Below, piece by piece: positions 2,006-39,602 of a stretch of DNA of 39,602 bases (its first letter is position 1; each line of letters starts with the position of its first letter). Source of the DNA: Nitrospira sp. (GTDB taxonomy: Bacteria > Nitrospirota > Nitrospiria > Nitrospirales > Nitrospiraceae); the NCBI GenBank assembly GCA_005116885.1, contig SWDP01000006.1:123835-163436 (forward strand). The letters run 5' to 3'. The position numbers and the translations under genes were made by a program. The notes beneath the pieces are model-generated. The model was not told where the DNA came from, did no database searches, and saw only the letters and a list, made by a program, of their open reading frames with translations.

Positions 2006-3283
2006 ATGCGCCGAGCTATTCTGATCATCAGTGTCCTGGCAATTGGACTGGCCATTGGAGGCTATGTGTTCTTCAATGGAGAGCGCAAAGCCCCAGTCCG
2101 CTATCGGACCGCCGCGGTCGAACGAGGTCCCGTGATTTCGCTCGTGACGGCGACGGGAACGATCAATCCTGTCGTGTCGGTTCAGGTGGGAACGCAGGTG
2201 TCCGGCATGATCAAGAGCCTGCATGCCGATTTCAATTCGGTGGTCAAAGCCGGCGACATCGTGGCCGTTATCGATCCGGAACCTCTCAGAGCGCGTCGAG
2301 ATCAAGCTGCAAGCAACCTTGAGATGTCGAAAGCGAATACCGCACGAGCCAGGACCGATCTGGCTCAACGTAAGCGTGAATTGGATCGGGTGCAATCGTT
2401 GGTGGCGCAACAGTTTGTCTCTCAGAACGACGTCGACGTGGCTGTGACGAATTCCCAGGCGGCTGAGGCGCAGATGAATGTCGCAGCGGCGCAAGTCAAA
2501 CAGGCCGAGGCGGCGTTGAATGCTGTGGAGTTAGAGTTGAAATACACCGTGATTCGCTCGCCGGTGAATGGAATTGTGGTTGCCAGAAACGTGGAGGTGG
2601 GTCAAACGATCGCGGCGAGTTTTGCCACACCGAACCTCTTCTTGATCGCTCTCGATCTGACGAAAATGCAGGTCGATACCAACGTCAGCGAGTCGGATAT
2701 CGGAGGGATTACTGAGGGGAAAGAGGCCACCTTCACGGTTGATGCGTACCCAGGGTATCAGTTTTCCGGGACGATCCGCCAGGTTCGCCTTTCGCCGATC
2801 AATGTGCAAAATGTGGTGACCTATAACGTGGTAGTCAACGTCGACAATCAGGATCTCCGCCTGAAGCCAGGAATGACTGCGAACGTTTCCATCGTGGTGG
2901 CCCAAAGAGATGCTGTGCTGAAAGTACCGAATGCTGCATTGCGATTCACCCCTCCAACGTCGGGCCAGGTCGATCGCACCAAGCTTGGCGGTACACCCAC
3001 CAAAGAGAAAGGCGCAGAGGCGTCGGCAGGAGCCGGCAGAGGGACTCAGGCACCAAGCCGCACAGTCTGGAGGCAAGGGGCCGCCGGGGAACTCGAGCCG
3101 ATTCATGTCCAAATGGGTATTTCTGATGGTGTGGTGACGGAGATCTTGTCGGAGGAGTTGTCTGAAGGCACTCTGGTCGTCGTGGGCATCGACCGCCCTA
3201 AAGGGGAACGTGGCGGAAGCGATCTGCCTCCAGGGTTTGGGAGCGGTGGGCAGCGGGGCTCCCAGCGCAACCGTGGAATGTAA
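2006..3283 (+). CDS. macA: MacA-type periplasmic adaptor of tripartite ABC efflux
   Basis: Membrane-fusion protein of the HlyD/MacA family, which links an inner-membrane MacB transporter to an outer-membrane TolC-like channel. The N-terminus has one membrane anchor (AILIISVLAIGLAIGGYVFF). The biotinyl-lipoyl half-motif VQVGTQVSGMIKSLHADFNS follows, then a long alpha-helical hairpin (about residues 95-170), the second lipoyl half (VIRSPVNGIVVARNVEVGQ) and the beta-barrel. The C-terminus carries a low-complexity Gly/Arg-rich tail (GGSDLPPGFGSGGQRGSQ) and a Thr/Lys/Gly-rich insertion near residue 335, both unusual. AGGGGAAG precedes the ATG. The two macB genes follow in the same direction; no tolC is present here. 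Substrate cannot be read from sequence. Confidence 0.92.
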   Translation: MRRAILIISVLAIGLAIGGYVFFNGERKAPVRYRTAAVERGPVISLVTATGTINPVVSVQVGTQVSGMIKSLHADFNSVVKAGDIVAVIDPEPLRARRDQAASNLEMSKANTARARTDLAQRKRELDRVQSLVAQQFVSQNDVDVAVTNSQAAEAQMNVAAAQVKQAEAALNAVELELKYTVIRSPVNGIVVARNVEVGQTIAASFATPNLFLIALDLTKMQVDTNVSESDIGGITEGKEATFTVDAYPGYQFSGTIRQVRLSPINVQNVVTYNVVVNVDNQDLRLKPGMTANVSIVVAQRDAVLKVPNAALRFTPPTSGQVDRTKLGGTPTKEKGAEASAGAGRGTQAPSRTVWRQGAAGELEPIHVQMGISDGVVTEILSEELSEGTLVVVGIDRPKGERGGSDLPPGFGSGGQRGSQRNRGM

Positions 3284-3295
3284 TATGTGTGAAGT

Positions 3296-3405
3296 GTATC
3301 TCGTGAAGCGTCGCTCGCAACAAGAATTCACACGCCCCGCCACATTCTTCGGCAGACAGCTTTTGTTCTTCTCAAACGCTTCACGCTTCACGCATCACGA
3401 GATAC
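3296..3405. repeat. REP-like inverted repeat between macA and macB ATPase
   Basis: The left arm 3296-3311 reads GTATCTCGTGAAGCGT. The right arm, 3376-3405, read on the minus strand, begins GTATCTCGTGATGCGTGAAG and continues with a second GTGAAGCGT unit. The arms are 64 bp apart and almost fill the macA-macB gap. The right arm ends one base before the ATG of the ATPase gene, so it occupies the ribosome-binding region. I recall similar CGTGAAGCGTGAAGCG units in intergenic regions of Nitrospira, but this is memory and not a search. Confidence 0.6.
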
Positions 3406-3406
3406 G

Positions 3407-4129
<723 letters not shown>

Positions 4130-5413: not shown

Positions 5414-6649
5414 CTAGGCCGCACGACGCGGTTCTTCCGATTCTGATGTGACCACCCGTTCAATGGATCGGAGAGGGGATTGGTTCTGGTTGGACAGATC
5501 GATGGTGAGCGGATCTCGGTAGGGACTGCCGGTTTCGTCGCACGTGAGCGCGACGATTGGTTGATGCAGGCTAGCGGAATTAATCGTGGTGATCATCCCT
5601 CGTTCCTTCGTGTTCAGCTCCACGGAGCTGTAGACTGGGTAGATGCCGACTAGCTTGATGAACAAGGAAACGAGACGATGGTCGAGACGGCCGAATTCTC
5701 CTTGTTGGAATAGTTGTTGAATTGCTGCGTGGGACGGCAACGGTCGGAGCCCTCCGAATCCGGTCAAGAGCTCATCGTATCGATCCGCGATCATCACGAT
5801 GCGACTTTCCTCTGCTGTGGAGTCTGCGGGTGTTTCTGAGGGATAGCCTTGCCCGTCGAGTGTGACATGGTGTTGGGCTGCTATTTGGCGAACTATCTGG
5901 GAGAAATCGTGTTGTGCCTCAATGGCAATGGCGCCGAGTCGTGGGTGATGGTGAAAGGCCGTGAGGTCTTCACCGGAGAGGAACGTTGATGTGCGGAACA
6001 GTCGATCAGGGAGTTGCAAGAGCCCGATGTCATGGAGTAATGCGCCGGTTGCCAACTCGTGGAGTTGCATCGGGTTATAGCCGAGAGCTTGGCCGATAAT
6101 CATCGCCAGTGTGCAGACGGTGAGGCTATGGTTGTTGAAGGATGCATCAAGATGCCGTCCATGGCTCATGGCCATGAATGTGGCGTGAGTGCTGAGAGTT
6201 CTGGTGACGATGGTGATTTCCTGCACGGCCTCGTTGACCGGTCCTGGTTTTGGGGCGCCCGTTTTACTGATTTCGTCGAACACAGTCTTGACCGACTGAA
6301 TCAACTTCTCACGCGTCTCTTGAGCGATCGTGAGTTCCTGACTCAACGTGGCAAGTGAGCGAGGTGCATCAAGGACTGGAGCTGCTTGAGTGGAGGTGCG
6401 TAAGCCGATCGTGTGAAGGGTCTCTTGCTCGATCGGGAAGAACGCCACGTCGAGCCCTTTGGAAGGGTCGATATCTACGGCTCGGGCATTGGATCGCCGC
6501 AAGCGCTCGATCTGCTCTTGAGTTGTAATCAGAAACCGATGTTTCAAAAATGGAGTTCGGAACCATGAGCAGTCGATACCGGCCACATACATTCCCACCC
6601 GGAGTTGCTGCAGAGAGATACGCTTACGCATTGCACACCGATCGATCAT
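5414..6649 (-). CDS. HD-GYP domain protein, putative c-di-GMP phosphodiesterase
   Basis: Probable cyclic-di-GMP hydrolase. The N-terminal 110 residues match the DUF3391 region that precedes many HD-GYP domains (RISLQQLRVGMYVAGID). The HD-GYP core runs from about residue 165 to 320 and keeps its metal ligands: NHSLTVC, the LLHDIGLL HD pair, the HHPRLGA His, AAQHHVTLDGQGYP (GYP motif) and the IADRYDELLTG Asp. All key residues are present, so it is probably active. An Arg/Glu-rich tail follows. ATG at 6649 is the first start; the internal ATG at 6631 (MRKRISLQQL) fits the family N-terminus better. Neither has a good Shine-Dalgarno. A PilZ protein at 23.8 kb is another c-di-GMP component of the window. 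Confidence 0.88.
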   Translation of the reverse strand: MIDRCAMRKRISLQQLRVGMYVAGIDCSWFRTPFLKHRFLITTQEQIERLRRSNARAVDIDPSKGLDVAFFPIEQETLHTIGLRTSTQAAPVLDAPRSLATLSQELTIAQETREKLIQSVKTVFDEISKTGAPKPGPVNEAVQEITIVTRTLSTHATFMAMSHGRHLDASFNNHSLTVCTLAMIIGQALGYNPMQLHELATGALLHDIGLLQLPDRLFRTSTFLSGEDLTAFHHHPRLGAIAIEAQHDFSQIVRQIAAQHHVTLDGQGYPSETPADSTAEESRIVMIADRYDELLTGFGGLRPLPSHAAIQQLFQQGEFGRLDHRLVSLFIKLVGIYPVYSSVELNTKERGMITTINSASLHQPIVALTCDETGSPYRDPLTIDLSNQNQSPLRSIERVVTSESEEPRRAA

Positions 6650-6778
6650 GAAATAGGTGTTGAGGAAGACCCGACACTCCCTTATCGGTTTGCCAGGCTC
6701 GGATATTGAGTGCGAGCAACTCGTATGAATCGTGAGAGATCGTCAAGAACGTGGGGAATCTTGGGGCTCTGTCGAGGG

Positions 6779-7333
6779 TCAAGTTGTCTTAGGTATTGTA
6801 GGGGTCAACTGTACTTCGATGCGAGGGTTGTCTTTGTCGATGTGCTTATAGAGATGGGTTTCGACGATGCGGTTGTCGTTGATCCCGAGCCCCTCACAGA
6901 GGGCATCCTGCGCGATCTTGAGCCCGCCATCGACGTCTCGTCGCAGGGCTGACGTAAAATAGAACCGGATGGACAGGGCGAGCCATTCTGACTGGAGTTG
7001 TGCGAGCAAGGACGCTCGGTGAGTGGACTGCGCCAGCTTGAGCCAGACAAGTTGTCCCACCTGGGCTTTATAGGCGCGACCGGCTGATGACATCAATCGT
7101 CGGCCATTGACGGTGGCATATTGATGGTTCACGCTGGGAGGTACGGGGAGGGTTAAGGCGACCGCATGGTTCTCGGTAGGGCGATGCGGTGTTGGGGGAG
7201 GCATACGGGATATCGGGGCCATTCTCTGGGCGAGACGTGGCATCGCAATTTTCTTGTCAGGGTTCCGGTAGGAGGTCACACGAACGGCCCGTGGAGAGGA
7301 AGGAATCCGGGGCGGACGCTGAAACGTAGGCAT
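6779..7333 (-). CDS. RusA-family Holliday junction resolvase with basic N-terminal extension
   Basis: The C-terminal 120 residues match RusA crossover-junction endodeoxyribonucleases: the LPVPPSVNHQY start of the fold, then RRDVDGGLKIAQDALCEGLG with the metal-binding Asp residues, and INDNRIVETHLYKH. RusA resolves four-way junctions as a dimer and is mostly of phage origin. The first 55 residues are Arg/Pro-rich and not part of the family; they may be an added DNA-binding tail or indicate a later start, though no good internal start codon is evident. It begins 12 bp after mraZ ends, as the third gene of an HTH-mraZ-rusA operon. This combination is unusual for RusA, which normally sits in prophages; no other phage gene is nearby. 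Confidence 0.8.
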   Translation of the reverse strand: MPTFQRPPRIPSSPRAVRVTSYRNPDKKIAMPRLAQRMAPISRMPPPTPHRPTENHAVALTLPVPPSVNHQYATVNGRRLMSSAGRAYKAQVGQLVWLKLAQSTHRASLLAQLQSEWLALSIRFYFTSALRRDVDGGLKIAQDALCEGLGINDNRIVETHLYKHIDKDNPRIEVQLTPTIPKTT

Positions 7334-7345
7334 GCGTGTCTGTGA

Positions 7346-7786
7346 TTACAGGAGATTGAGGATCTTGGACATGTTCTGGTCGTATCGCTCTTCAGATCGG
7401 CCGATATACCGACGCCATGTGCTTGGGTTCCAGATCTCCATACGATGATACAAGCCGACCAGGATGATTTCCTGGTCTTCATCCAACGGAATATTTTTCC
7501 TGAGCCGGCTTGGAATCAGAATGCGCCCGGCTTTGTCGAGTTCCGATGTCCCGGCTTCCGATACGACAAAGTGCATGAACAGTCGACTTTGATCTTCATC
7601 GAGCGTGGCCTTCGTCCGTTCGAGGACTTTTTCCCACTCTTTCATGGAGTAGATGAGCGTCGACTCCTCGGGGCCCTTGAGGAACACAACGGCTTGTCCA
7701 TCCGACTCGACTTGCTCACGGATCGGCGAGGGGACGATAAACCGACCCTTCTCATCTACTTTGCACAGATATTCACCGGCAAACAT
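7346..7786 (-). CDS. mraZ: MraZ-like transcriptional regulator
   Basis: MraZ is a ring-forming DNA-binding protein with two AbrB/SpoVT-type half-domains, normally the first gene of the dcw cell-division cluster and its repressor. Both halves are seen: MFAGEYLCKVDEKGRFIVPS at the N-terminus, and SELDKAGRILIPSRLRKN around residue 80. Length 146 is typical. The start is set at ATG 7786, preceded by AAGGACAGG; an adjacent TTG at 7789 is the alternative. No mraW, ftsL or other division gene follows. Instead it is flanked by an excisionase-like HTH gene and rusA, so this is either a second, relocated MraZ or a divergent cluster. Function at this locus is unknown. Confidence 0.85.
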   Translation of the reverse strand: MFAGEYLCKVDEKGRFIVPSPIREQVESDGQAVVFLKGPEESTLIYSMKEWEKVLERTKATLDEDQSRLFMHFVVSEAGTSELDKAGRILIPSRLRKNIPLDEDQEIILVGLYHRMEIWNPSTWRRYIGRSEERYDQNMSKILNLL

Positions 7787-8572: not shown

Positions 8573-9394
8573 TTATATTCCCAGGGTTGTGAGGGGTCGT
8601 CCAGTCTGTTCAGTTAACAAGCGATCCGGTACCAGGTCCGTCTCGACGGTTCTGGCTAACGTCAGGGCAAAGACTTGCTCGCTGCCGGCTTTTCGTAGGG
8701 TTTTTGCACATTCGTTCAGTGTGGTACCGGTGGTGAAGACATCGTCCACGAGGAGAATACGCTTTCCTGCAAGATCGTGTGGCCTACGGATCGTAAATGC
8801 ATTCCGTAGATTTCGTAGCCGTGCCTGTCGCGATAAGGCGGTTTGAGGATCGGTGAGGGCGGTTCTGACAAGGTTGGTGGCTGAAACGGGGCGGGACAGG
8901 TGACGACCGAGCTGATCGGCTAACAGCAACGATTGGTTAAATTCACGCGTGCGTAGGCGCGCCGGGTGTAAGGGCACTGGGATAACCACGTCGGCGTCGA
9001 GTCCCTGTGGTAGAGCGTTGATCATGAGTTGCGCGAGTGGCCGTGCGAGTGTCAGTTTGCCTCGGTACTTGAATGAGCAGATCGCGTCCCGCAGAGGTGG
9101 GAGATAAGGGAAGAGGGTCCAGGCGCGTTCAAAGTCAGGGGGCTGTTCCTGGCAGTACCGGCATTGATGGTTCGGTGTATAGGTCGTAGCTGCCGGTGAG
9201 ACGAACGGCTGATCGCAGCGGGCACACACCGGCTGATGGAGTGGGCGGATGGTGTGCCAGCACGCGGCGCAGAAGAAGGGCACTGGGTCGGTGCTGAGTG
9301 GGTGGCCACATGAGAGGCATTCCACTGGCAGGACGAACCGAAGGAGCTGACGACATCGTCCCATCAGCCGATCTTGTGTGTCTTCACGTAACAT
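8573..9394 (-). CDS. comF: ComF-family phosphoribosyltransferase-like protein
   Basis: ComF/GntX homologue, related to type I phosphoribosyltransferases and involved in DNA uptake in competent bacteria. The N-terminal zinc-binding part has several CxxC pairs (LSCGHPL, FCAACWH, CARCDQPF, CRYCQEQPP). The PRTase core includes VVIPVPLHPARLRTREFNQS and the PRPP loop ILLVDDVFTTGTTLNEC, both well conserved. Length 273 is slightly above the usual 230-250. The first ATG (9394) is listed; an internal one at residue 11 is possible. It starts the comF-fmdB pair and is transcribed divergently from the LolD-like ATPase gene across a 272-bp region in which I recognise no gene. Confidence 0.9.
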   Translation of the reverse strand: MLREDTQDRLMGRCRQLLRFVLPVECLSCGHPLSTDPVPFFCAACWHTIRPLHQPVCARCDQPFVSPAATTYTPNHQCRYCQEQPPDFERAWTLFPYLPPLRDAICSFKYRGKLTLARPLAQLMINALPQGLDADVVIPVPLHPARLRTREFNQSLLLADQLGRHLSRPVSATNLVRTALTDPQTALSRQARLRNLRNAFTIRRPHDLAGKRILLVDDVFTTGTTLNECAKTLRKAGSEQVFALTLARTVETDLVPDRLLTEQTGRPLTTLGI

Positions 9395-9666
9395 GAGTCG
9401 GGGAAGCGCTCCGATTACCGTGTGTGTTCCTTCTATGAGACTATCCTGCGTCCTTCAAGGTTGTTGCCCTGCAAACGGTTATGATATACGAAGGCGGTAG
9501 GATATTGAAACTACTCTGCCGGCGCAACCGGCTGTGATGGGCGAGAACAGATTGAGTGTCATGTTTGATGGCATTCGATGAACCCGATTGGAATACTCAG
9601 TCAGATAACGCGCGTGTCCATTTATCCCTACTGCGGATCCGAGTCTAGAGAGAGACGTCGATTGCC

Positions 9667-32515: not shown

Positions 32516-33064
32516 TCAACGCAACCGCGGGAAGCCGATTCTGTCCCGCGAGAGGGCTCGTGCTGTGCCGATGAGGCGGACCGGCACAAGTGGCGCGCCC
32601 GTCACGAGCGCCAGGCGCGCGGCGCCCCGGTGCCACACACGGTCGCCGTAGATGGCGCCTTGCGGGAAAATTGCGACTGCCTGTCCTGCTTCGAGCGCAT
32701 GTCGCATCCGGGCAAGAGCGAGATGGTCGCCGCAGCCACGCTTAATCCCAATTGCACCAAGCCCGTCAAGCACCCACCCAAGCAGTCGGGATTGCCAGAG
32801 TTCCGCCTTTCCGAGGAAACGCAGTTCCCGCGAAATCGCTGCTCCTAGGACGATCCCGTCGAGCACCGAGTCATGATTCGGTGCGATGACCATAGGCCCG
32901 GTGACGGGGAGGCGATCGGCCCCGATCACCTCGAGTCGATACATGGCGCGTACCAAGCTGCCGAAGAAACGGCGAGCCTGCATATAGGTCGGAGCGGAGA
33001 ACGATAGAAGACCCGCATCGTTGTTTGTCCGACGGTCGACAAGTGTATCCATCAATGATGCCAT
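32516..33064 (-). CDS. PlsC-like 1-acylglycerol-3-phosphate acyltransferase, short C-terminus
   Basis: Acyltransferase of the PlsC/LPLAT family, making phosphatidic acid or remodelling lipids at the inner membrane. The catalytic NHxSxxD motif is present (PNHDSVLDG, His64 and Asp69). The second motif, usually FPEGTRS, is changed to FPQGAIYGD (133-141), and the third, PVRLIGTARAL, is recognisable. AGGAGGAGG precedes the ATG. At 182 residues it is shorter than most (200-250): it stops right after RIGFPRLR, where homologues continue. In a shifted frame the next codons read VALIFHCARP, which could be the missing strand, so a one-base frameshift is possible. Activity is uncertain. Confidence 0.75.
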   Translation of the reverse strand: MASLMDTLVDRRTNNDAGLLSFSAPTYMQARRFFGSLVRAMYRLEVIGADRLPVTGPMVIAPNHDSVLDGIVLGAAISRELRFLGKAELWQSRLLGWVLDGLGAIGIKRGCGDHLALARMRHALEAGQAVAIFPQGAIYGDRVWHRGAARLALVTGAPLVPVRLIGTARALSRDRIGFPRLR

Positions 33065-33238
33065 CAGACCTCCTCCTCATTCATGACTTCCCTGTCTGAT
33101 CGTAGCAGTCAGCCATTTAGCCGTTTTGCTTCGATCCAGTGCTCTCTAGAGATTCCAGCTCAGCAACCGGGCATATGCGAAGCGTGGATTGTGTCCATCG
33201 CGCCATAGTCGGGCTCGCTGTCGCATAGGGGTGAGACG

Positions 33239-33484
33239 TTACCCCTTGCCTCGTTTCTCTTTTTTCCAGGCTTCCCAGGCATAGAAAAACCCAATCGGCG
33301 CACTGATGAGGCAAATAATCGCCAGAAGAGACGATTCTACGGCGAGCCACCCTCCAAGAGCGGTATAGATGGATGATCCGAGGAAATAGACATACCAGGG
33401 AATCCTGCGCATTTTTTTCGGAGGCCTGTCGGTGTGCGATGTCATGACGCTTAGACCTGCAGATTTGAGAAATTGTACAGACAT
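33239..33484 (-). CDS. Small two-helix membrane protein of unknown function
   Basis: Not recognised. An 81-residue protein with a basic N-terminal segment (TDRPPKKMRRIPWY), two hydrophobic helices (VYFLGSSIYTALGGWLAVES and LLAIICLISAPIGFFYAWEA) and a Lys-rich tail, so both ends are probably cytoplasmic. The layout recalls AtpZ/DUF-type small membrane proteins, but I see no signature. GGGAGGG precedes ATG 33484; ATG at residue 14 is an alternative. It lies 58 bp after the exported 193-residue protein in the same direction, within the ftsH-associated gene group. Confidence 0.6.
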   Translation of the reverse strand: MSVQFLKSAGLSVMTSHTDRPPKKMRRIPWYVYFLGSSIYTALGGWLAVESSLLAIICLISAPIGFFYAWEAWKKEKRGKG

Positions 33485-33542
33485 TGTCAGGGCCCTCCCT
33501 CTGGAATTGTGGACTATCTGGTGGATCGGAACGTCTGGTTTC

Positions 33543-34124
33543 CTACGAACGGATGCCTGCCCACCGATTCCGCAGCCACTTCGACCGTACGAGCTTGTAC
33601 CCGAGCCAGGCCATGAGCAGCACGCCGAGCAGTGGAACCACTACGGAATTCACCAACTTCTGATAATCGGTCATCTGGACTCGCAAGAGATACTGGTAGC
33701 GCAATGGCTTCTGTCCCTCCGCCGTAATGATGACCCGATACAGGCCTTCTTCCAGCGTGGTCTCGCCACTCACGACTCCAGTCGGATGGTGACTCGGACG
33801 CCAGTCTGCTACCGTCTGAGCTTCTGCCTCATTACTCCCGCTCCCCTTCACGATCCGCAGACCCACCGGCACGTTGCGCAATGCCGGATCCACGAGGTCC
33901 ACAACCAGGAAGGTTTCGCCTGTCTTGGGAATGTCCGTGCAGTATTGAGCTTTGAGCTCGTATTGCGGCTGGTAGGAACTGAAATGCACCGCGCTCTCAC
34001 CGACCCAGCGCACGCAAGGATCGACTTCCAGATCCGCTCCTTCATGTGCCGCGGCTGTGCCGGGGTACAGTGCGGCAACAAGTAGGAGCGCCATCAAACT
34101 TACTCGCGTCATGTGCCTATTCAT
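33543..34124 (-). CDS. Exported protein with C-terminal membrane anchor, unknown function
   Basis: Not recognised. A 193-residue protein with a clean signal peptide (VSLMALLLVAALYPGTAAAH, cleavage probably after AAA), an extracytoplasmic domain of about 120 residues with two Cys (DPCVRWVG, AQYCTDIPKTGETF) that may pair, and a C-terminal helix (LVNSVVVPLLGVLLMAWLGY) followed by a basic cytoplasmic tail (RSKWLRNRW). The central LVVDLVDPALRNVPVGLRIV with LEEGLYRVIITAEGQ suggests an Ig-like beta fold. AGGAGGG precedes the ATG, 17 bp after the zinc-ribbon gene, so the two are probably one transcript. Confidence 0.7.
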   Translation of the reverse strand: MNRHMTRVSLMALLLVAALYPGTAAAHEGADLEVDPCVRWVGESAVHFSSYQPQYELKAQYCTDIPKTGETFLVVDLVDPALRNVPVGLRIVKGSGSNEAEAQTVADWRPSHHPTGVVSGETTLEEGLYRVIITAEGQKPLRYQYLLRVQMTDYQKLVNSVVVPLLGVLLMAWLGYKLVRSKWLRNRWAGIRS

Positions 34125-34141
34125 ATGCCGGACCCTCCTGT

Positions 34142-34384
34142 TTAGAACCTCGAGGTGATCCGCTGCTCGATCCGGTTAAGGGGAAGGGAGCTACCCACGG
34201 GTATCACTATCGAGTTACATGCTGTTGTGCGCAACGTGACGCACTGATGCGCCGCAATCACGAGATCGACAATCGCGCCACAGTTGAGACAACGCCGCCC
34301 CCAAAATCCGTTGCCACAGGATTCGAGCCCATAATCTTTAAACTCCTCGATCACCATCAATCCTCCACAGCGTGCGCACCTCAT
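34142..34384 (-). CDS. Small zinc-ribbon protein
   Basis: An 80-residue protein opening with MRCARCGGLMVIEEF and, 25 residues later, RRCLNCGAIVDLVI, giving a CxxC...CxxC zinc ribbon. The last 35 residues are unlike a known domain. The start is ATG 34384, preceded at ideal spacing by AAGGAGG; GTG 34387 is in frame too. I recall short proteins starting CxxCGGLMV as frequent in Nitrospira, often near regulatory genes. Function unknown. It follows ftsH by 103 bp and precedes the exported protein by 17 bp. Confidence 0.75.
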   Translation of the reverse strand: MRCARCGGLMVIEEFKDYGLESCGNGFWGRRCLNCGAIVDLVIAAHQCVTLRTTACNSIVIPVGSSLPLNRIEQRITSRF

Positions 34385-34487
34385 CACAGACCTCCTTCCT
34401 TGAAGGGATTGTGCGTCTGCTACTTCGCAGCGTTCCCGCTGTTCTTCCTGCTAGAATTTCGAGCATCTGCATATGTGAGTTTGCATC

Positions 34488-36308
34488 TCAGTGATTGTCC
34501 ATGATGGCTTTAAGCTCACTGCCGCTGATCACCTCGCGTTCGAGCAGGACTTTTGCTCCTTCTACGAGTGCACGCTTCTTTTCAGCTAAGAGCCATCTCA
34601 CGCGATCGTATTGCTCGTCGATGATCCGGCGCACTTCACAGTCGATCTCGCGGGCGGTCTCCTCCGAGTAGTCGCCTTTCTCCTGAGTCGCCTGAATCTG
34701 CATGATAAGAGGCTGGCGTTCACGATCCAGGGTCACGGCACCCAGCTTCTCGCTCATCCCGTAGGATTTGACCATGCTCTTGGCAATGTCCGTCGCCCTG
34801 ACCAGGTCGTTCTGTGCGCCCGTGGAGGCCTCGCCGAAGATCAATTCTTCCGCATTTCGCCCTCCGAGTAAGACGGCAATCTTGTTCTCCAGCTCCGTCT
34901 TGGCCATCAGAAAGCGATCCTCCGTCGGGAGTTGAAGGGTATAGCCCAACGCGGCAATCCCTCTGGGGATGATGGAGATTTTCTGTATCGGGTCTGCGCC
35001 TGGGAATGACAACGCCACCAAGGCGTGACCCACTTCATGATGGGCGACTCGTTCCCTCTCCGTCTTGTTGAGCACCCGGTTCTTCTTTTCCAACCCCGCC
35101 ACGACCCGCTCTACCGCTTCTTGCAATTCCGAGTGACCCACCTGCTCTTTATTCCGACGCACGGTCAACAGTGTCGCTTCGTTGATGATATTCGCGAGGT
35201 CGGCGCCGGAGAACCCGGGGGTCATCCCGGCGATCACCTCAAGACCTGCGTCGGGACCCAGCGCCACCCGCTTCGCATGAACGTGCAAGATGGCCAGGCG
35301 GCCGATCTTGTCTGCACGATCGACCAGCACTTGGCGATCGAACCGGCCGGCCCGCAACAGTGCGGGATCCAGGATCTCAGGCCGATTGGTCGCCGCCATC
35401 AGAATGACGCCGATGCGGGGATCGAAGCCGTCCATCTCGACCAGCAACTGATTCAGGGTCTGCTCACGCTCCTCATGCGCCATGGGTCCCATCCCGCGGG
35501 CTTTTCCGATCGCATCCAGTTCGTCGATAAAGATAATACAGGGCGCTTTGACCTTTGCCTGCTCGAACAAGTCCCTCACGCGAGCTGCCCCGACCCCCAC
35601 AAACATTTCCACGAATTCGGACCCGCTGATGCTGAAAAAGGTGACACCGGCCTCTCCGGCCACGGCGCGTGCCAGGAGTGTCTTGCCGGTTCCAGGTGGG
35701 CCAACGAGTAAGATGCCTTTGGGAATCTTTCCTCCGAGACGCGTAAATTTTTCCGGTGTCTTGAGAAAGTCGATCACCTCGCGCAGTTCTTCCTTCGCCT
35801 CGTCCACGCCGGCCACATCCGCGAACGTCACCTTCGTGTCCTTCTCGGCATAAATCTTCGCCTTCGACTGCCCCACTGTCATGAACCCGCTTTGGCCCTG
35901 TCCGAACCGCTTCATGACAAAGAACCAAATGCCGACGAAGACCAGCGCAGGAACGACCCAGGAGAGGAGATCGCGCAAGAAGGTACTTTCAATCACGCCA
36001 CTAAACGTGACGTTATGTGCGTTGAGCTCCTTGACCAGATCGGGATCTTCAACCCGAATGGCCGTAAACAACTTCTGGTCTTTGGATACTCCTTCCGACT
36101 TCAGCTTCCCGGTCACTCTCTGGTTAGTGAGCGTACGAGTGACCGTGACTTCCGCCACGTTGCCGGCCGCCAGGAGCGTCTTGAATTCGCTATACGGAAG
36201 CTCTTCAAGCATCTGCATGGGCGTGATGAAATTGTGCACGAACAGGACGGCCCCGATCGTGAGAAAGGCACACAGGACTGAAAAGGAGATTTTTTTATTC
36301 ACTGGCAT
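34488..36308 (-). CDS. ftsH: ATP-dependent zinc metalloprotease FtsH
   Basis: Membrane-bound AAA+ protease degrading damaged membrane proteins and regulators. Two transmembrane helices ([40 protein letters not shown]) bracket the periplasmic domain. The AAA+ domain shows [14 protein letters not shown], the pore [30 protein letters not shown] and [20 protein letters not shown]. The zinc site is [13 protein letters not shown] (HEXXH), with a downstream Asp ligand region. Length 606 is slightly short at the C-terminus. AAAGGA lies upstream of the ATG. It follows the two small membrane peptides and a STAS gene with a sigma-54 promoter. Such a neighbourhood is not the usual tilS-hpt-ftsH-folP one, so this may be a second, conditional FtsH. 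Confidence 0.97.
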
Positions 36309-36484
36309 CGCGAGTTGTTCCTTTCTCTGTCACGACCCTAAGGTGGATCGAAGGATTGGGGCTGTTGCACTCACGCCCCTGTTTGCCGTGTTCCCTTTGG
36401 GCTTCTTGCTGACGTCCTAAGGCGACAGAATCTTGATACGCAATCTGGACATCTGGGCATCCGCCCACGCTGAGGATTCCCTTC

Positions 36485-36601
36485 TCAGCCTTTGAAGTAA
36501 CCAGTTGCAAGCACCAGACATATCAAAATCACGGCACCAAGAATGATGAAAATGACCCCCTTCATGGTGGGAACTCCTTGTTGAAAAACTATAGATGGCA
36601 T
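36485..36601 (-). CDS. Small single-helix membrane peptide, copy 1 (38 aa)
   Basis: Unrecognised small gene. From ATG 36601 it reads MPSIVFQQGVPT, then MKGVIFIILGAVILICLVLA and TGYFKG. The hydrophobic run of about 20 residues is one transmembrane helix. An internal ATG at 36565 has AAGGAG eight bases upstream and would give a 26-residue form. It is paralogous to the gene just upstream (36614-36730): both have a 12-residue lead ending in Thr before MKGVIFIILG, and ATG-to-ATG distance is 129 bp. The frame is conserved while leads differ, which supports coding. It lies 176 bp before ftsH. Function unknown. Confidence 0.7.
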   Translation of the reverse strand: MPSIVFQQGVPTMKGVIFIILGAVILICLVLATGYFKG

Positions 36602-36613
36602 TAGCATTCGGCA

Positions 36614-36730
36614 TTAGGGCCTGAGGAGGCCCGTTGCCAGTGCCAGGCACATCACAAGCACACCACCAAGAATAATGAAAATGACGCCCTTCATGGTGTG
36701 ATCGTTTTTTTGCACAGTAGTATTTGACAT
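36614..36730 (-). CDS. Small single-helix membrane peptide, copy 2 (38 aa)
   Basis: Unrecognised small gene. From ATG 36730, with AGAGGAGGG correctly upstream, it reads MSNTTVQKNDHT, then MKGVIFIILGGVLVMCLALA and TGLLRP. A hydrophilic 12-residue lead precedes one transmembrane helix with a single Cys, which copy 1 also has at the same position. Sixteen or more of the 26 core residues are identical between copies, and the differences are conservative (A/G, I/V, L/M). It is 54 bp downstream of the STAS gene and 12 bp from copy 1, on the ftsH strand, so all are probably co-transcribed from the sigma-54 promoter at 37087. Confidence 0.75.
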   Translation of the reverse strand: MSNTTVQKNDHTMKGVIFIILGGVLVMCLALATGLLRP

Positions 36731-36784
36731 TGGAATTCCCTCCTCTTGTGTGTGGGTCGATTTGGTTATCAGAACTGCACCGCC

Positions 36785-37051
36785 TTATCCTTCCCTGCCT
36801 TTCTCACGGATCATCCACTCCCGTATGTACGGCCAGCAATTGAGGAGCTCGACACCGCTTTCTTCACAGGCGTTCAGAAATCGAATGATCTCGACATCCA
36901 CGAGCGTCACTCCGTTGAGGTCCAGCGCAATCCGCGACCGAGCGCCTTCCATTTGCGCCTTCAATTCATCCAGATGCTTCGCTTGCAACCGACCGCTTAG
37001 ACAAATCATCGTCTTGAGACGGCGGGTTTCTTTTTCAAATTTTATTGTCAT
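36785..37051 (-). CDS. STAS-domain protein
   Basis: An 88-residue STAS (anti-sigma-factor-antagonist-like) protein. MTIKFEKETRRLKTMICLSG is followed by RLQAKHLDELKAQMEG, the IALDLNGVTLVDVEIIRFLN strand-helix element and GVELLNCWPYIREWM. The phosphorylatable Ser/Thr of SpoIIAA-type proteins would fall near TLVDVE; whether it is a target is unclear. The start at 37051 has AGAGG six bases upstream. About 24 bases before it lies the predicted sigma-54 transcription start. No anti-sigma kinase is adjacent. A decayed second copy is at 38777-38857. Confidence 0.82.
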   Translation of the reverse strand: MTIKFEKETRRLKTMICLSGRLQAKHLDELKAQMEGARSRIALDLNGVTLVDVEIIRFLNACEESGVELLNCWPYIREWMIREKGREG

Positions 37052-37086
37052 CTGTGACCTCTGCAACCTGGACTACATAAAAATAT

Positions 37087-37102
37087 TGCAATGAAGAGGC
37101 CA
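37087..37102 (-). promoter_or_regulatory. Sigma-54 (-24/-12) promoter of the STAS gene
   Basis: Minus-strand TGGCCTCTTCATTGCA fits the consensus TGGCAC-N5-TTGCA, with GG and GC separated by exactly 10 bases. Predicted transcription starts near 37076, about 25 bases before the STAS ATG. The same element, TGGTCTCTTCATTGCA, stands at the same place in the duplicated copy (38888-38903). Confidence 0.8.
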
Positions 37103-37145
37103 GCTATAAACCATTGAAATGTTTGTGTTTGGCGTGGATACTTCT

Positions 37146-37177
37146 GCCGAAGTTTCAGCATTTGCTGAATGATCGGC
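37146..37177. promoter_or_regulatory. 32-bp dyad, probable enhancer site for the sigma-54 activator
   Basis: GCCGA-AGT-TTCAGCA-TT-TGCTGAA-TGA-TCGGC: a perfect 7-bp inner inverted repeat with matching 5-bp outer arms. Its centre is about 85 bases upstream of the predicted start, where enhancer sites of sigma-54 activators lie. No T-tract follows on either strand, so it is not a terminator. It is conserved in the second copy at 38947-38978. Confidence 0.65.
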
Positions 37178-37266
37178 AAAAGAGGCAGGAGTATTCGGTG
37201 AAATTTCAATTCTCGGTCGGATTGCGTGGAGGATAGTGAGCGGGTGCTGGCTCAGAGGAGTCGTCT

Positions 37267-37306
37267 AAAACAAAAGCAATGATCCGCGAGAGGCCGGTTC
37301 TCGCGG
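37267..37306 (-). terminator. Intrinsic terminator after the truncated activator gene
   Basis: On the minus strand CCGCGAGA and TCTCGCGG pair as an 8-bp stem with a 7-base loop, followed by ATCATTGCTTTTGTTTTA. It lies 28 bases past the stop of the activator remnant and insulates the STAS promoter from upstream transcription. Confidence 0.7.
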
Positions 37307-37333
37307 GTGGCGCCCAAACAACTTTTGGCATTT

Positions 37334-37591
37334 TTACCGTGCGTAGTCGGTTTGTCGAGTCTTAAACTGATGTTTGTTAATTCCCAGGGCCGTGATTTTT
37401 GATTCAAGTGTCTGCCTCGGGAGTCCGAGCTTGGCCGCGGTGCCGGTAGGGCCGCTGACCCGGCCTCCGCAATCCGCCAACGCCGCTTCAATGATGTCAT
37501 TTTCATGCTCGGCTAGCGCGACGCCTACCGTCCTTTTACGGCTTTTCAGATCGCCTCGCCAATCTGTTGAAGCTAAAGCACTGATTTGCAA
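37334..37591 (-). pseudogene. Sigma-54 activator C-terminal remnant (Fis-type HTH only)
   Basis: An 85-codon frame whose last 60 residues (LAEHENDIIEAALADCGGRV and AAKLGLPRQTLESKITALGI) match the Fis-type DNA-binding end of the activator at 39135-39602. The first 25 residues (from MQISALASTDWRGDL) are unrelated and start at the duplication breakpoint. The AAA+ domain needed to act on sigma-54 is absent. If translated, it would bind the dyad without activating, so a role as a competitor cannot be excluded. It begins 23 bp after the SDR gene ends. Confidence 0.7.
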
Positions 37592-37614
37592 TTGACACTG
37601 CGAGTAGGCGTAAC

Positions 37615-38418
37615 CTAAGTGGCAGTAATGCTGTAGCGCACTGCAGGAGAATGGAGTGACAGCTTCGGTATCATGTTCTGCCGCGCCGCCTCATATGCCT
37701 CCCAGTCGGCGATCTCTGGCAGCGAAGGAATGGTTACGCTCTCGCCGCGGTCGAGTCCGACGAGCGCAGCGTCTACCATTTTGTCCACGTCCATCAGCAT
37801 GCTTGGCGGCAAGGTCGCGATGTCTATCCCGGCCTTTTCCCAAATCGCCGTCCGGGTCGCACCCGGCAGCACCACCTGCACGCGAACGCCCTTGCTCGCG
37901 ACTTCCTGTTGCAACCTCAAGCTCAGATTGAGCAGATAGGCTTTGGTGCCGCTATAGCTGCCGTTGAACCACTCCGGCGCGAGTGCCAGGACCGAGCTGA
38001 TGTTGATGAGGGTGCCACTGCCGCGCACGACAAATCCTGGAATCGCCGCTAGCGCCAGCAATGTCGGCGCCAGCACGTTGAGCTGAATCATGCTCTCGAG
38101 ACGATCGGGATCGGCATTGGCCAGGTCGCCAAACATGGCGATGCCCGCGTTGTTGACCAGGACGGTGATTGTGGCATCAGTGCGCAGCACCTGTTCGACT
38201 CGAGCGAGATCCGCCCTGTTGTTCAAGTCGGCAACGATAACCTCGACGGAACGGCCAGTGTCATTGGTGATTCGTGCCGCCAGCGAGTCGAGTCGTTCTC
38301 GATTGCGGGCGACGAGGATCAGATCATGCCCGCGACTGGCCAGTCGATCGGCATAGATCGCGCCGATCCCAGAAGAAGCGCCCGTTATCAGAGCGGTACT
38401 TTTTAGGCTTGTATCCAT
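37615..38418 (-). CDS. Short-chain dehydrogenase/reductase
   Basis: Classical SDR of 267 residues, NAD(P)-dependent, substrate unknown. The cofactor motif TGASSGIGAIYADRLASRG is at the N-terminus, followed by LVARNRERLD (Arg after the second strand suggests NADPH), NNAGIAMFGDL, the catalytic Ser in NISSVLALAPEW, and YSGTKAYLLNLS (YxxxK). PGATRTAIW is the usual post-catalytic loop. AAGGAG lies six bases upstream of the ATG. The gene sits between the two copies of the duplicated sigma-54 block, with no functional link to its neighbours that I can see, so it may have been captured during the rearrangement or by transfer. Confidence 0.92.
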   Translation of the reverse strand: MDTSLKSTALITGASSGIGAIYADRLASRGHDLILVARNRERLDSLAARITNDTGRSVEVIVADLNNRADLARVEQVLRTDATITVLVNNAGIAMFGDLANADPDRLESMIQLNVLAPTLLALAAIPGFVVRGSGTLINISSVLALAPEWFNGSYSGTKAYLLNLSLRLQQEVASKGVRVQVVLPGATRTAIWEKAGIDIATLPPSMLMDVDKMVDAALVGLDRGESVTIPSLPEIADWEAYEAARQNMIPKLSLHSPAVRYSITAT

Positions 38419-38776
38419 GTTGTTCTCCTTCTCTCAAATTGTGTGCCGGCAATTATATTCGATCGACCGTGACGGCAGCCAAGTCGATCGTAATTGGTGC
38501 GAAACCCTGGGTTGCGACGCTTCTGCCTTCGTGAAGGTGCACGAACTGTCTTATCGGAAATGCGACAACCGTCGAATGTTTTGTGCTCGTGCGTGTGGTG
38601 TGCGACCGGCGGTTTCTTCGTTACGTCAGGTGAATAGTCCCTACGCCGCTGCATGTGTGCGTCGTCGCAGCAGAAGGCCTGATCGGTATTGTGGTTCGCG
38701 ACGGTCTTTGTGAATAGCACCGCGAGGCGTCGCCACGTTTGCTCACCTTCGGTCCACGGGGCGATTTCTCGCGCCT
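38419..38776. other. Intergenic stretch upstream of the SDR gene
   Basis: About 360 bp with no gene I can support. Open frames occur on both strands, but their translations are Arg/Cys-rich and lack domain features. The SDR promoter should be near the SDR end; none was clear. The right end merges into the decayed STAS copy. Confidence 0.4.
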
Positions 38777-38857
38777 CCAGGTGTTTTGATTGTAGTCGAC
38801 TGCTCATTCAATCATCGTCTTGAGGGTGTGGTTTTCTCTTTCAATTCTTATTATCAT
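38777..38857 (-). pseudogene. STAS pseudogene fragment, copy B
   Basis: From ATG 38857, with AGGAA upstream, the frame reads MIIRIERENHTLKTMIE and stops at 38804. This matches MTIKFEKETRRLKTMIC of the intact STAS protein. In the next frame similarity resumes as SSRLQSKHLEAREI against SGRLQAKHLDELKA, showing a one-base deletion around 38810. After about 38777 similarity is lost, so the rest of the domain has been deleted or replaced. The promoter in front is still intact. Confidence 0.75.
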
Positions 38858-38887
38858 GTGCGATTCCTGCGACCGGATGAGAAATAA

Positions 38888-38903
38888 TGCAATGAAGAGA
38901 CCA
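38888..38903 (-). promoter_or_regulatory. Sigma-54 (-24/-12) promoter, copy B
   Basis: Minus-strand TGGTCTCTTCATTGCA keeps GG and GC with 10-base spacing. It lies 30 bases before the ATG of the frameshifted STAS copy, so it would now transcribe only a 17-codon fragment and the region leading to the SDR gene. Confidence 0.7.
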
Positions 38904-38946
38904 GATGTAAGCCTTTGATAGAGTGACACCTGGTCTGGTTTCGACT

Positions 38947-38978
38947 ACCGAAATTTCAGCATTTGCTGAATGATCGGC
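38947..38978. promoter_or_regulatory. Dyad, probable activator site, copy B
   Basis: The inner TTCAGCA-TT-TGCTGAA is identical to copy A; the outer arms ACCGA and TCGGC match in four of five pairs. It sits at nearly the same distance upstream of the copy B promoter as in copy A, which argues for selection on the site. Confidence 0.6.
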
Positions 38979-39066
38979 AAAAGAGGCAGCAGTATCCGGT
39001 GAAGCTTCGATTCTCTGTCGGATTGAGTGGAGGACGGTGAGTGGGTGCGGGGTCAGAAGAGTAATC

Positions 39067-39106
39067 TAAAACAAAAGCAATGATTCGCGAGAGACCGGCT
39101 CTCGCG
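39067..39106 (-). terminator. Intrinsic terminator after the sigma-54 activator gene
   Basis: CGCGAGA and TCTCGCG form a 7-bp stem around a GC-rich loop, followed on the minus strand by ATCATTGCTTTTGTTTTA. It lies 28 bases past the activator stop and is the counterpart of the copy A terminator. Confidence 0.65.
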
Positions 39107-39134
39107 GGTGGCGCCCAAACAACTTTTGGTCTTT

Positions 39135-39602
39135 TTACCGTGCGTAGTCGGCTTGTCGAGCCTTGAAGCGATGCTTGTTAATTCCCAGGGCCGTGATTTT
39201 TGATTCAAGCGTCTGCCTCGGGAGACCGAGCTTGGCCGCGGCGCCGGTAGGGCCGCTGACCTGGCCCGCACAATCCGCCAACGCCGCTTCAATGATGTCC
39301 TTTTCATGCTCGGCTAGCGTGGCGCCTAGAGGAATCACCGACCCCGACAGCCGGTGCTTTTCCCGTTTCAACCAGGTCTCGTCGACAGAAAATGTTTCGC
39401 TCTCGCACAGCACGATCGCTCGCTGGATGACATTCTGGAGTTCGCGAATGTTGCCGGGCCAGTCGTAGTCCTGAAACAGCTCCAAGGTCTCTTTCTGTAT
39501 ATTCTTGATTTTTTTCCCGGCCTTCTTCGCATAGCGTTCAATCAGGTAGGTGACGAGTAACGGGATGTCGTCTATCCGTTCGCGTAACGGGGGGATCTGG
39601 AT
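39135..39602 (-). CDS. Sigma-54-dependent transcriptional activator (NtrC family), 5' part outside window
   Basis: C-terminal 155 residues of an enhancer-binding protein; the frame is open to the window end. The end of the AAA+ domain is visible as IQIPPLRERIDDIPLLVTYL, with FQDYDWPGNIRELQNVIQRA (WPGNIREL signature). The Fis-type HTH follows: LAEHEKDIIEAALADCAG and AAKLGLPRQTLESKITALGI. The sensor domain and the GAFTGA loop lie outside the window. The gene is immediately upstream of a dyad and a sigma-54 promoter that are both duplicated next to the STAS-peptide-ftsH group, which makes it the likely regulator of that group. Confidence 0.9.
   Translation of the reverse strand: MQIPPLRERIDDIPLLVTYLIERYAKKAGKKIKNIQKETLELFQDYDWPGNIRELQNVIQRAIVLCESETFSVDETWLKREKHRLSGSVIPLGATLAEHEKDIIEAALADCAGQVSGPTGAAAKLGLPRQTLESKITALGINKHRFKARQADYAR

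Follow-up and report, generated by a model that had tools for sequence, protein, structure and literature searches.

Short predicted single-helix membrane peptides of Nitrospira are encoded in a conserved sigma-54 type locus with AmoD-family and lone amoC genes

Ammonia monooxygenase (AMO) performs the first step of nitrification, and to our knowledge little has been established about its accessory factors in comammox bacteria. Two small-protein systems from outside ammonia oxidation bear on the genes described here: SpoVM of Bacillus is a 26-residue peptide that forms an amphipathic surface helix and has a relation to FtsH, and the phage-shock (Psp) response combines a sigma-54 activator and small membrane proteins with a membrane protease nearby. 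Among ammonia oxidizers, the archaeal proteins AmoY (9.6 kDa) and AmoZ (12.8 kDa) are both found in native AMO complexes (PMC10030591). Proteins of the PmoD family have a signal peptide, two strictly conserved Cys residues and a C-terminal transmembrane (TM) helix, a CuA motif (Cx7MxHxnC) is limited to a subset of them, and a role related to pMMO/AMO is supported (PMC6189053). In the account of PMC6311188, every comammox genome has at least one non-operonal amoC gene, which in ammonia-oxidizing bacteria may serve the stress response.

The stretch analyzed (the window) comprises 39,602 nt from a Nitrospira sp. genome (G000; 3.19 Mb, 83.9% complete), and two adjacent small genes on its reverse strand are the only peptide matches of this family in that genome:

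36614–36730, reverse strand: peptide copy 1, 38 amino acids with a single predicted TM helix; MSNTTVQKNDHT (lead) followed by MKGVIFIILGGVLVMCLALATGLLRP (core)
36738–36745, reverse strand: Shine-Dalgarno GAGGAGGG of copy 1 (38-amino-acid start), pairing −13.1 kcal/mol; 1% of random window 20-mers reach −11.6 or stronger
36485–36601, reverse strand: peptide copy 2, full 38-amino-acid frame (40 amino acids if an ATG two codons upstream is used); MPSIVFQQGVPT (lead) followed by MKGVIFIILGAVILICLVLATGYFKG (core)
36566–36601, reverse strand: in-frame lead of copy 2, 12 codons, carrying a Shine-Dalgarno; pairing at the 38-amino-acid start is weak (−1.5 kcal/mol)
36574–36579, reverse strand: AAGGAG ahead of the internal ATG of copy 2, pairing −8.0 kcal/mol
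36485–36565, reverse strand: likeliest 26-amino-acid product of copy 2, stop included, from start-site pairing and from the copy 2 of G030, which has the 26-amino-acid form only

An earlier sequence-only reading had described a common core in these two genes, a single Cys in each, and leads that end in Thr, all of which is confirmed; the two copies also share one reading frame. Their leads do differ, as that reading said, but they are not unrelated, since the copy 2 lead MPSIVFQQGVPT resembles the lead MPSITFQKGDHT of the single-copy genes in G013 and G029. The predicted membrane helix in each is supported by Kyte-Doolittle maxima (19-residue window) of 2.64 and 3.04, indicating one hydrophobic helix of membrane-spanning length, and by an AlphaFold model of the peptide with a helix from residue 4 to 33 (mean pLDDT 77). 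Across 22 core sequences from 14 genomes, residues F18, I19, L21, G22, C28, L29, L31 and G34 are invariant, and a Met adjoins the invariant Cys, which lies within the predicted membrane helix, in 21 of the 22; the exception is the window's own copy 2. Pfam gave no match for copy 1 and two sub-threshold matches for copy 2 (E 0.12 and 0.21), an NCBIfam scan of copy 1 found no family, the PDB sequences searched with the family profile gave no match, and Rfam at gathering cut-offs found nothing in 33000–39602. Among open-access PMC papers, searched by title and start of abstract, none concerned the peptide or the locus. By these comparisons the two genes are members of a new family of predicted single-helix membrane peptides, 26–38 residues long.

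A profile search finds the family in 14 of the 32 genomes of the window's Nitrospira genus (G000 included), and a single 38-amino-acid query against 197 genomes gave clear matches in the same 14. The profile, run against 235 genomes of the order, returned nothing convincing outside the genus, the best match (E 0.0029) being part of a 576-amino-acid frame; matches outside the genus in either search (E 0.003 or weaker, mostly parts of longer frames) were set aside as chance. Twelve named records carry the family, including Nitrospira sp. CG24A, CG24C, CG24E, RSF3, RCB and palsa_1310, and CG24E is a clade B comammox organism (PMC6311188). In GTDB, clades A and B belong to separate genera, both also with non-comammox members (PMC12342949), and the mixed AMO content of the genus here fits that placement. 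Most of the genomes are gapped drafts or metagenome bins, and many are incomplete; the presence counts given here are lower bounds, and the statistics count related genomes as independent, except for the tree-based simulation that follows.

The core of 26 residues is under purifying selection. In the 14 copy 1 sequences, core codons 14–38 have a pN/pS of 0.43, where neutral simulation (on the STAS gene tree, with kappa 2.5 and the base composition of the test region) has a mean of 0.98 and reached so low a value in 2 of 1000 runs; the STAS control in the same simulation gave 0/200. The seven copy 2 sequences, one of whose alignment rows (G023) is short by one N-terminal residue, agree with a core value of 0.39, and their lead value of 3.0 comes from very few changes. 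The frame is kept in all 22 core sequences, and the coding nature of both genes stands. The particular argument made for it earlier, that frame and length are retained while the leads diverge, is not borne out: lead codons 2–12 of copy 1 have a pN/pS of 1.32, at or below which fell 834 of 1000 neutral simulations. These leads contain no stop and no length change in 14 genomes, and the spacer ahead of them ranges over 51–55 nt. Freedom from stops is weak evidence by itself, as none arose in 344 of 1000 lead simulations. An in-frame copy 1 lead without visible amino-acid constraint implies that the selected unit is the 26-residue helix.

The start sites suggest that the two forms are divided between the copies. 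Both signals noted earlier, the strong Shine-Dalgarno of copy 1 and the AAGGAG upstream of the internal ATG of copy 2, are present. At the 38-amino-acid start of copy 1, anti-Shine-Dalgarno pairing is −7.8 to −13.3 kcal/mol in 14/14 genes, and in copy 2 (7/7) it is only −1.5 to −3.6 at the 38-codon position and −8.0 to −8.5 at the internal start. Random 20-mers have a median of −3.2 and their strongest 5% sits at −9.0 kcal/mol, so that by energy the internal start is good without being extreme, and its AAGGAG has the standard spacing of 8 nt. The copy 2 of G030 has no lead at all, its Shine-Dalgarno overlapping the copy 1 stop codon, and its product is MKHIIFIVLGAIAVMCLVLATGYFKG. Thus the sites indicate that copy 1 is probably made as 38 residues and copy 2 probably as 26. 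Among single-copy genomes, G006, G013 and G029 have a good Shine-Dalgarno at both starts and G005, G018 and G031 at the first start only; at codon 13, 12 of the 14 copy 1 genes have ATG and two have GTG, both usable as starts. In all seven loci where copy 2 has a lead, its 38-codon frame starts 12 nt past the copy 1 stop, and the copy 2 lead would be translated only if ribosomes re-initiate after copy 1. In G023 the first codon of copy 2 is AGG instead of ATG and the next upstream ATG lies two codons earlier. An ancestral gene that had two starts was probably duplicated, its two forms then being split between the copies. A terminator-like hairpin (sense strand, 36555–36574, reverse) spans the copy 2 start codon, and may mask it or have arisen by chance from the repeat; that kilobase has four terminator-like sites where 1.0 is expected.

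Upstream of the peptides lies a regulatory region whose parts are as follows:

37087–37102, reverse strand: sigma-54 −24/−12 element TGGCCTCTTCATTGCA (GG-N10-GC), from a site scan and the 14-locus alignment
37154–37169, no strand assigned: palindrome TTCAGCAAATGCTGAA, putative activator binding site, lying 51 nt upstream of the −24 element; present at 14/14 loci with 0–2 mismatches
37334–37591, reverse strand: remnant of the activator C-terminus from a local duplication
39135–39602, reverse strand: C-terminal part of the sigma-54 activator, which continues past the window; an assembly gap breaks it in G000

The window holds three sigma-54 sites, and as many occur in 4 of 100 shuffles, so that a single site is weak evidence; the alignment, on the other hand, has TGG and TTGCA at constant spacing in 14/14 loci (the stricter TGGC form in 6/14), and the sigma-54 promoter that had been placed ahead of the peptide genes is thereby upheld as a conserved site of this type. 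The perfect palindrome occurs in G000 in two copies only, both in the window (this site and the duplicated remnant); with one mismatch allowed there are four per strand against two for the reversed control, a slight excess. It is probably the binding site of the activator. The intact activator of G025 has GAF, PAS, sigma-54 AAA and HTH_8 domains. Activator sequence lies upstream in 12/14 loci (none in G018 and G023): G005 has the C-terminal piece alone, G029 a piece at the end of its contig, and G000 pieces around the gap. G005, G018 and G023 have no close full copy elsewhere, only matches of 34–41% identity. G005, G018 and G023 keep the palindrome and promoter despite the lost or partial activator: in G005 the activator C-terminus alone is left, and in G023 and G018 other coding sequence after an FtsH-like piece replaces the activator beside STAS (L040:1–1650, L043:1–2300 and L044:1–760 for the three). 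In the window, a local duplication (37048–39340) repeats the activator C-terminus remnant, the palindrome and the STAS start around a short-chain dehydrogenase gene (37615–38418) that among the 14 loci is common to G027 only.

The row of genes behind this promoter also runs on the reverse strand and includes, besides the peptides,

36785–37051, reverse strand: STAS-domain protein, first gene of the row (STAS_2, E 6.6e-05, below the Pfam cut-off); orthologues in 14/14 peptide genomes
34488–36308, reverse strand: accessory FtsH, a second paralogue with 51% identity to the other copy in the genome; adjacent in 7/14 loci
34142–34387, reverse strand: small zinc-ribbon-like protein with CxxC pairs, read from the sequence; tblastn match at 12/14 loci
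33543–34124, reverse strand: PmoD/AmoD-family protein, 193 amino acids, with an N-terminal signal-like helix, two invariant Cys and a C-terminal TM; match at 14/14 loci
33239–33484, reverse strand: 81-amino-acid hydrophobic protein; tblastn match at 14/14 loci
32516–33064, reverse strand: PlsC-type acyltransferase (Pfam PF01553, E 3e-19); tblastn match at 10/14 loci

The palindrome, −24/−12 promoter, STAS gene, peptide and PmoD/AmoD-family gene are constant in 14/14 loci, always with STAS and then the peptide. Copy 2 is found in eight, ftsH in seven, the zinc ribbon in 12, the AmoD-like and 81-amino-acid proteins in 14 and PlsC in ten. Recurrence of the peptide beside STAS or ftsH genes, which the sequence-only reading had put forward as a check, is therefore complete for STAS and partial for ftsH (7/14). 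The zinc-ribbon-like gene has no Pfam match above cut-off and no tblastn match in G025 and G029. PlsC has no tblastn match in G006, G012, G018 and G029, and the G031 match counted among the ten is a 29-residue piece; a hydrolase gene occupies its position in G006 and G029, and the G012 contig ends there.

It is the AmoD-like gene and a lone amoC that relate this locus to ammonia oxidation. The 33543–34124 product has a profile match to PmoD (PDB 6cpd, E 7.2e-11 in a search of PDB sequences) and shares the features of that family, a signal-like helix, two Cys and a C-terminal TM; C37 and C62 are invariant in 12 sequences. Its model is poor (pLDDT 54) and shows N- and C-terminal helices, and the signal peptide was judged by eye. 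The CuA motif Cx7MxHxnC is absent from the window's protein, which reads Cx7AxH, and with Ala in place of the CuA Met a CuA site is doubtful there; the AmoD-like proteins of G018 and G030 do have the Met. The AmoD family occurs in 19 of the 32 genomes, all of them among the 20 that are AMO-positive (amoA or amoC), G004 being AMO-positive without AmoD; G000 itself has amoA and amoC matches. Past the activator and on the other strand there is a lone amoC gene at seven of the eight loci with enough contig, six of the 14 contigs ending too early to judge. It is essentially whole in G019, G025 (NCBIfam AmoC_BACT above cut-off) and G013, in pieces beside assembly gaps in G000, G026 and G027, and represented by its first 46 residues at a contig end in G030. 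G031 has no amoC in the 1,768 nt of contig before the activator, though amoC is found elsewhere in that genome. Five gaps between amoC and activator were scanned for sigma-54 sites and the palindrome: four, including a short and gapped one, match neither, and that of G030 has weak matches only, so amoC need not be co-regulated with the row.

The peptide itself is present in 14/20 AMO-positive and 0/12 AMO-negative genomes of the genus (Fisher p 1.1e-4, kinship ignored). The six AMO-positive genomes without it are G004 (92% complete) and G014, G016, G022, G024 and G028 (70–82% complete). In G024 (L113, about 9050–9421) the first 122 residues of the activator abut the AmoD gene, with no match for STAS, peptide, ftsH or zinc ribbon, and amoC, split by an assembly gap, remains. 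The intervening genes look deleted, by natural deletion or by misassembly, and as amoC is kept, the peptide would be unneeded for AMO in general if the deletion is real.

Other genes near the lone amoC include one for an SPFH/Band 7 lipoprotein-like protein adjoining it and one for a distant polyhydroxyalkanoate-depolymerase-like hydrolase (region of L075:5053–5910 and 6477–7472), both seen also at the G000, G019, G026 and G027 loci; the hydrolase lies on the PlsC side in G006, G029 and G031. A second, unrelated small single-helix peptide with a good Shine-Dalgarno (in G019, MDLIILVIMALVTLLWWASAARWRTAVAVRRQTGVGRSRVK; L115:3135–3260, forward strand) is encoded between another lone amoC, which it follows directly, and a zinc-ribbon gene, in the neighborhood of an AmoD gene; in L116 it lies on the reverse strand between amoC (3103–3828) and zinc-ribbon (2382–2705) genes. 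With a two-row profile it turns up in 21 of 175 family genomes, every one of this genus. Seven of these are AMO-negative, and small peptides here are therefore not AMO-specific as a class.

Earlier, the position between a sigma-54 promoter and ftsH had suggested a role in membrane stress, with SpoVM as an analogy. The FtsH context holds in part of the loci, and AMO is the better-supported context than either FtsH or SpoVM because of the lone amoC beyond the regulator and the PmoD/AmoD gene in the row. A role in AMO assembly or quality control is favored because the constant neighbors are AMO-related and FtsH is optional. It seems a little less than an even call that the peptide is an inducible single-helix accessory peptide for the assembly or quality control of AMO membranes, encoded in a switchable accessory ammonia-oxidation locus. 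The GAF-PAS sigma-54 activator would sense a small molecule or redox signal, bind the palindrome and switch on STAS, the peptide, copy 2 and FtsH where these are present, the zinc ribbon and the AmoD-like protein. The peptide would insert into the membrane as a single helix, likely act by helix-helix contact, and help to assemble, stabilize or hand over membrane proteins of an AmoC/AmoD-containing AMO under stress or restart, and copy 2, as the bare 26-residue helix, would be coupled to the accessory FtsH of the same row. A stronger and rather improbable version makes the peptide a lineage-specific inducible subunit or assembly factor of a bacterial AMO in which the lone AmoC and the AmoD paralogue are used, a bacterial equivalent of the small AMO subunits of archaea; the invariant Cys of the peptide, with the adjoining Met, might then aid copper handling, and copy 2 might be an FtsH-linked version that removes damaged complexes.

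Possible, but unlikely, is a general membrane-stress peptide in a phage-shock-like locus, in which case closeness to AMO merely reflects the many AMO-related genes of these cells. The sigma-54 activator and promoter, FtsH, the PlsC gene of ten loci and the SPFH-domain lipoprotein-like gene near the lone amoC would all suit it, as would the switch without the peptide in G219. This genome of another genus has together a related activator, a perfect palindrome, a −24/−12 site at the same spacing and STAS; no peptide was found there, and by eye the genes that follow resemble those for a cupin and a reductase. For the favored reading, G219 makes the switch a unit and the peptide its cargo; G061, with a weaker STAS match, is likewise without peptide. 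What such a general role leaves aside is the AmoD-family gene in every row and the lack of the peptide in all 12 AMO-negative genomes, and the activator reaches 280 bits against the PspF model, whose cut-off is 444.

A modulator that binds the accessory FtsH and tunes its proteolysis, after the pattern of SpoVM, is doubtful. Copy 2 and ftsH do go together, in 7/8 loci with copy 2 and 0/6 without (p 0.0047, indicative only as the genomes are related), and this is the part of the earlier placement of the peptides beside ftsH that stands; the other seven of the 14 peptide loci have no adjacent ftsH, so that ftsH is no fixed partner of the family, and no named family was found for the peptide. Accordingly the peptide was not accepted as a marker of ftsH loci, and the link between copy 2 and ftsH was retained. 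From a point within copy 1 to the first third of ftsH, a stretch of about 1,000 nt, G012 and G025 share 93–99% identity; over the rest of ftsH they share 85–96%, and over the 570 nt upstream 75–78%. Copy 2 and ftsH are both present in G023 and both missing from its close relative G018. The co-occurrence, the G012/G025 identity and the G023/G018 contrast imply that copy 2 and ftsH behave as a recombining cassette, and they look like a unit that was exchanged with its breakpoint inside the peptide gene (L037, L035, L040, copy 2 to ftsH). The spacer between peptide and ftsH is also matched in three of the seven ftsH-less loci (G005, G006 and G018; 0/300 shuffles each), which would suit an FtsH modulator, and not in G013, G029, G030 and G031 (84, 211, 98 and 157 of 300 shuffles); these data fit ftsH loss and later insertion alike. 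In G026 the 3′ half of ftsH is present twice in tandem (L034:8620–9504; 93.6% identical to the window protein), which may be genuine or arise from the assembly.

Type I toxins typically occur in tandem copies and are extremely hydrophobic, and the length of the peptide, its hydrophobicity and its duplication recall such toxins or a membrane-depolarizing peptide, as does the hairpin that could hide the copy 2 start. This is nevertheless very improbable, given the position behind STAS in 14/14 loci, the lack of any Rfam match, and the lack of an antisense sigma-70-like promoter over the genes (a consensus scan found one site, at 37114, with 0.7 expected). That the DNA is not a gene but a conserved spacer or RNA element, open by chance, would suit leads that evolve free of amino-acid constraint, but it is extremely improbable given the purifying selection on the core in this frame (2/1000), pN/pS values of 0.85 and 0.90 in frames +1 and +2, the kept start codons and Shine-Dalgarno sites, and the absence of an Rfam family.

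The peptide gene, conserved and too short for routine annotation, lies in a self-contained sigma-54 locus with AmoD and a lone amoC and is a testable candidate for an AMO accessory factor. The activator and its single-locus palindrome also provide a handle on the signals to which lone amoC loci respond.

Among the systems with which the peptide may be compared, SpoVM shares with it a length of 26 residues and a suspected relation to FtsH; it is, however, an amphipathic surface helix, whereas the peptide is predicted to be a hydrophobic membrane-spanning one, and regulation and context differ. Membership in a SpoVM type was rejected, as the Pfam, NCBIfam and PDB searches gave no similarity to a named family. 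The Psp response likewise has a sigma-54 activator, small membrane proteins and a nearby membrane protease, but the activator of this locus falls below the PspF cut-off and has GAF-PAS domains, and the neighbors are AmoD and amoC. The AmoC3 singleton stress system of Nitrosomonas europaea (Berube and Stahl 2012, cited in PMC6311188) resembles the locus in that a lone amoC is tied to stress regulation; in N. europaea, as PMC6311188 presents it, this is by sigma-32, whereas here there are a dedicated sigma-54 activator and a peptide gene. The 33543–34124 neighbor belongs to the PmoD/AmoD family, to which the peptide itself is unrelated. The archaeal AmoX, AmoY and AmoZ are, in the description of PMC10030591, small, mainly helical membrane proteins that are amo-linked and restricted to ammonia oxidizers. 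The peptide is different from them in having 26–38 residues and in being confined to part of one Nitrospira genus, and like them it is linked to amo genes, with a lone amoC at 7/8 readable loci and an AmoD-family gene at 14/14.
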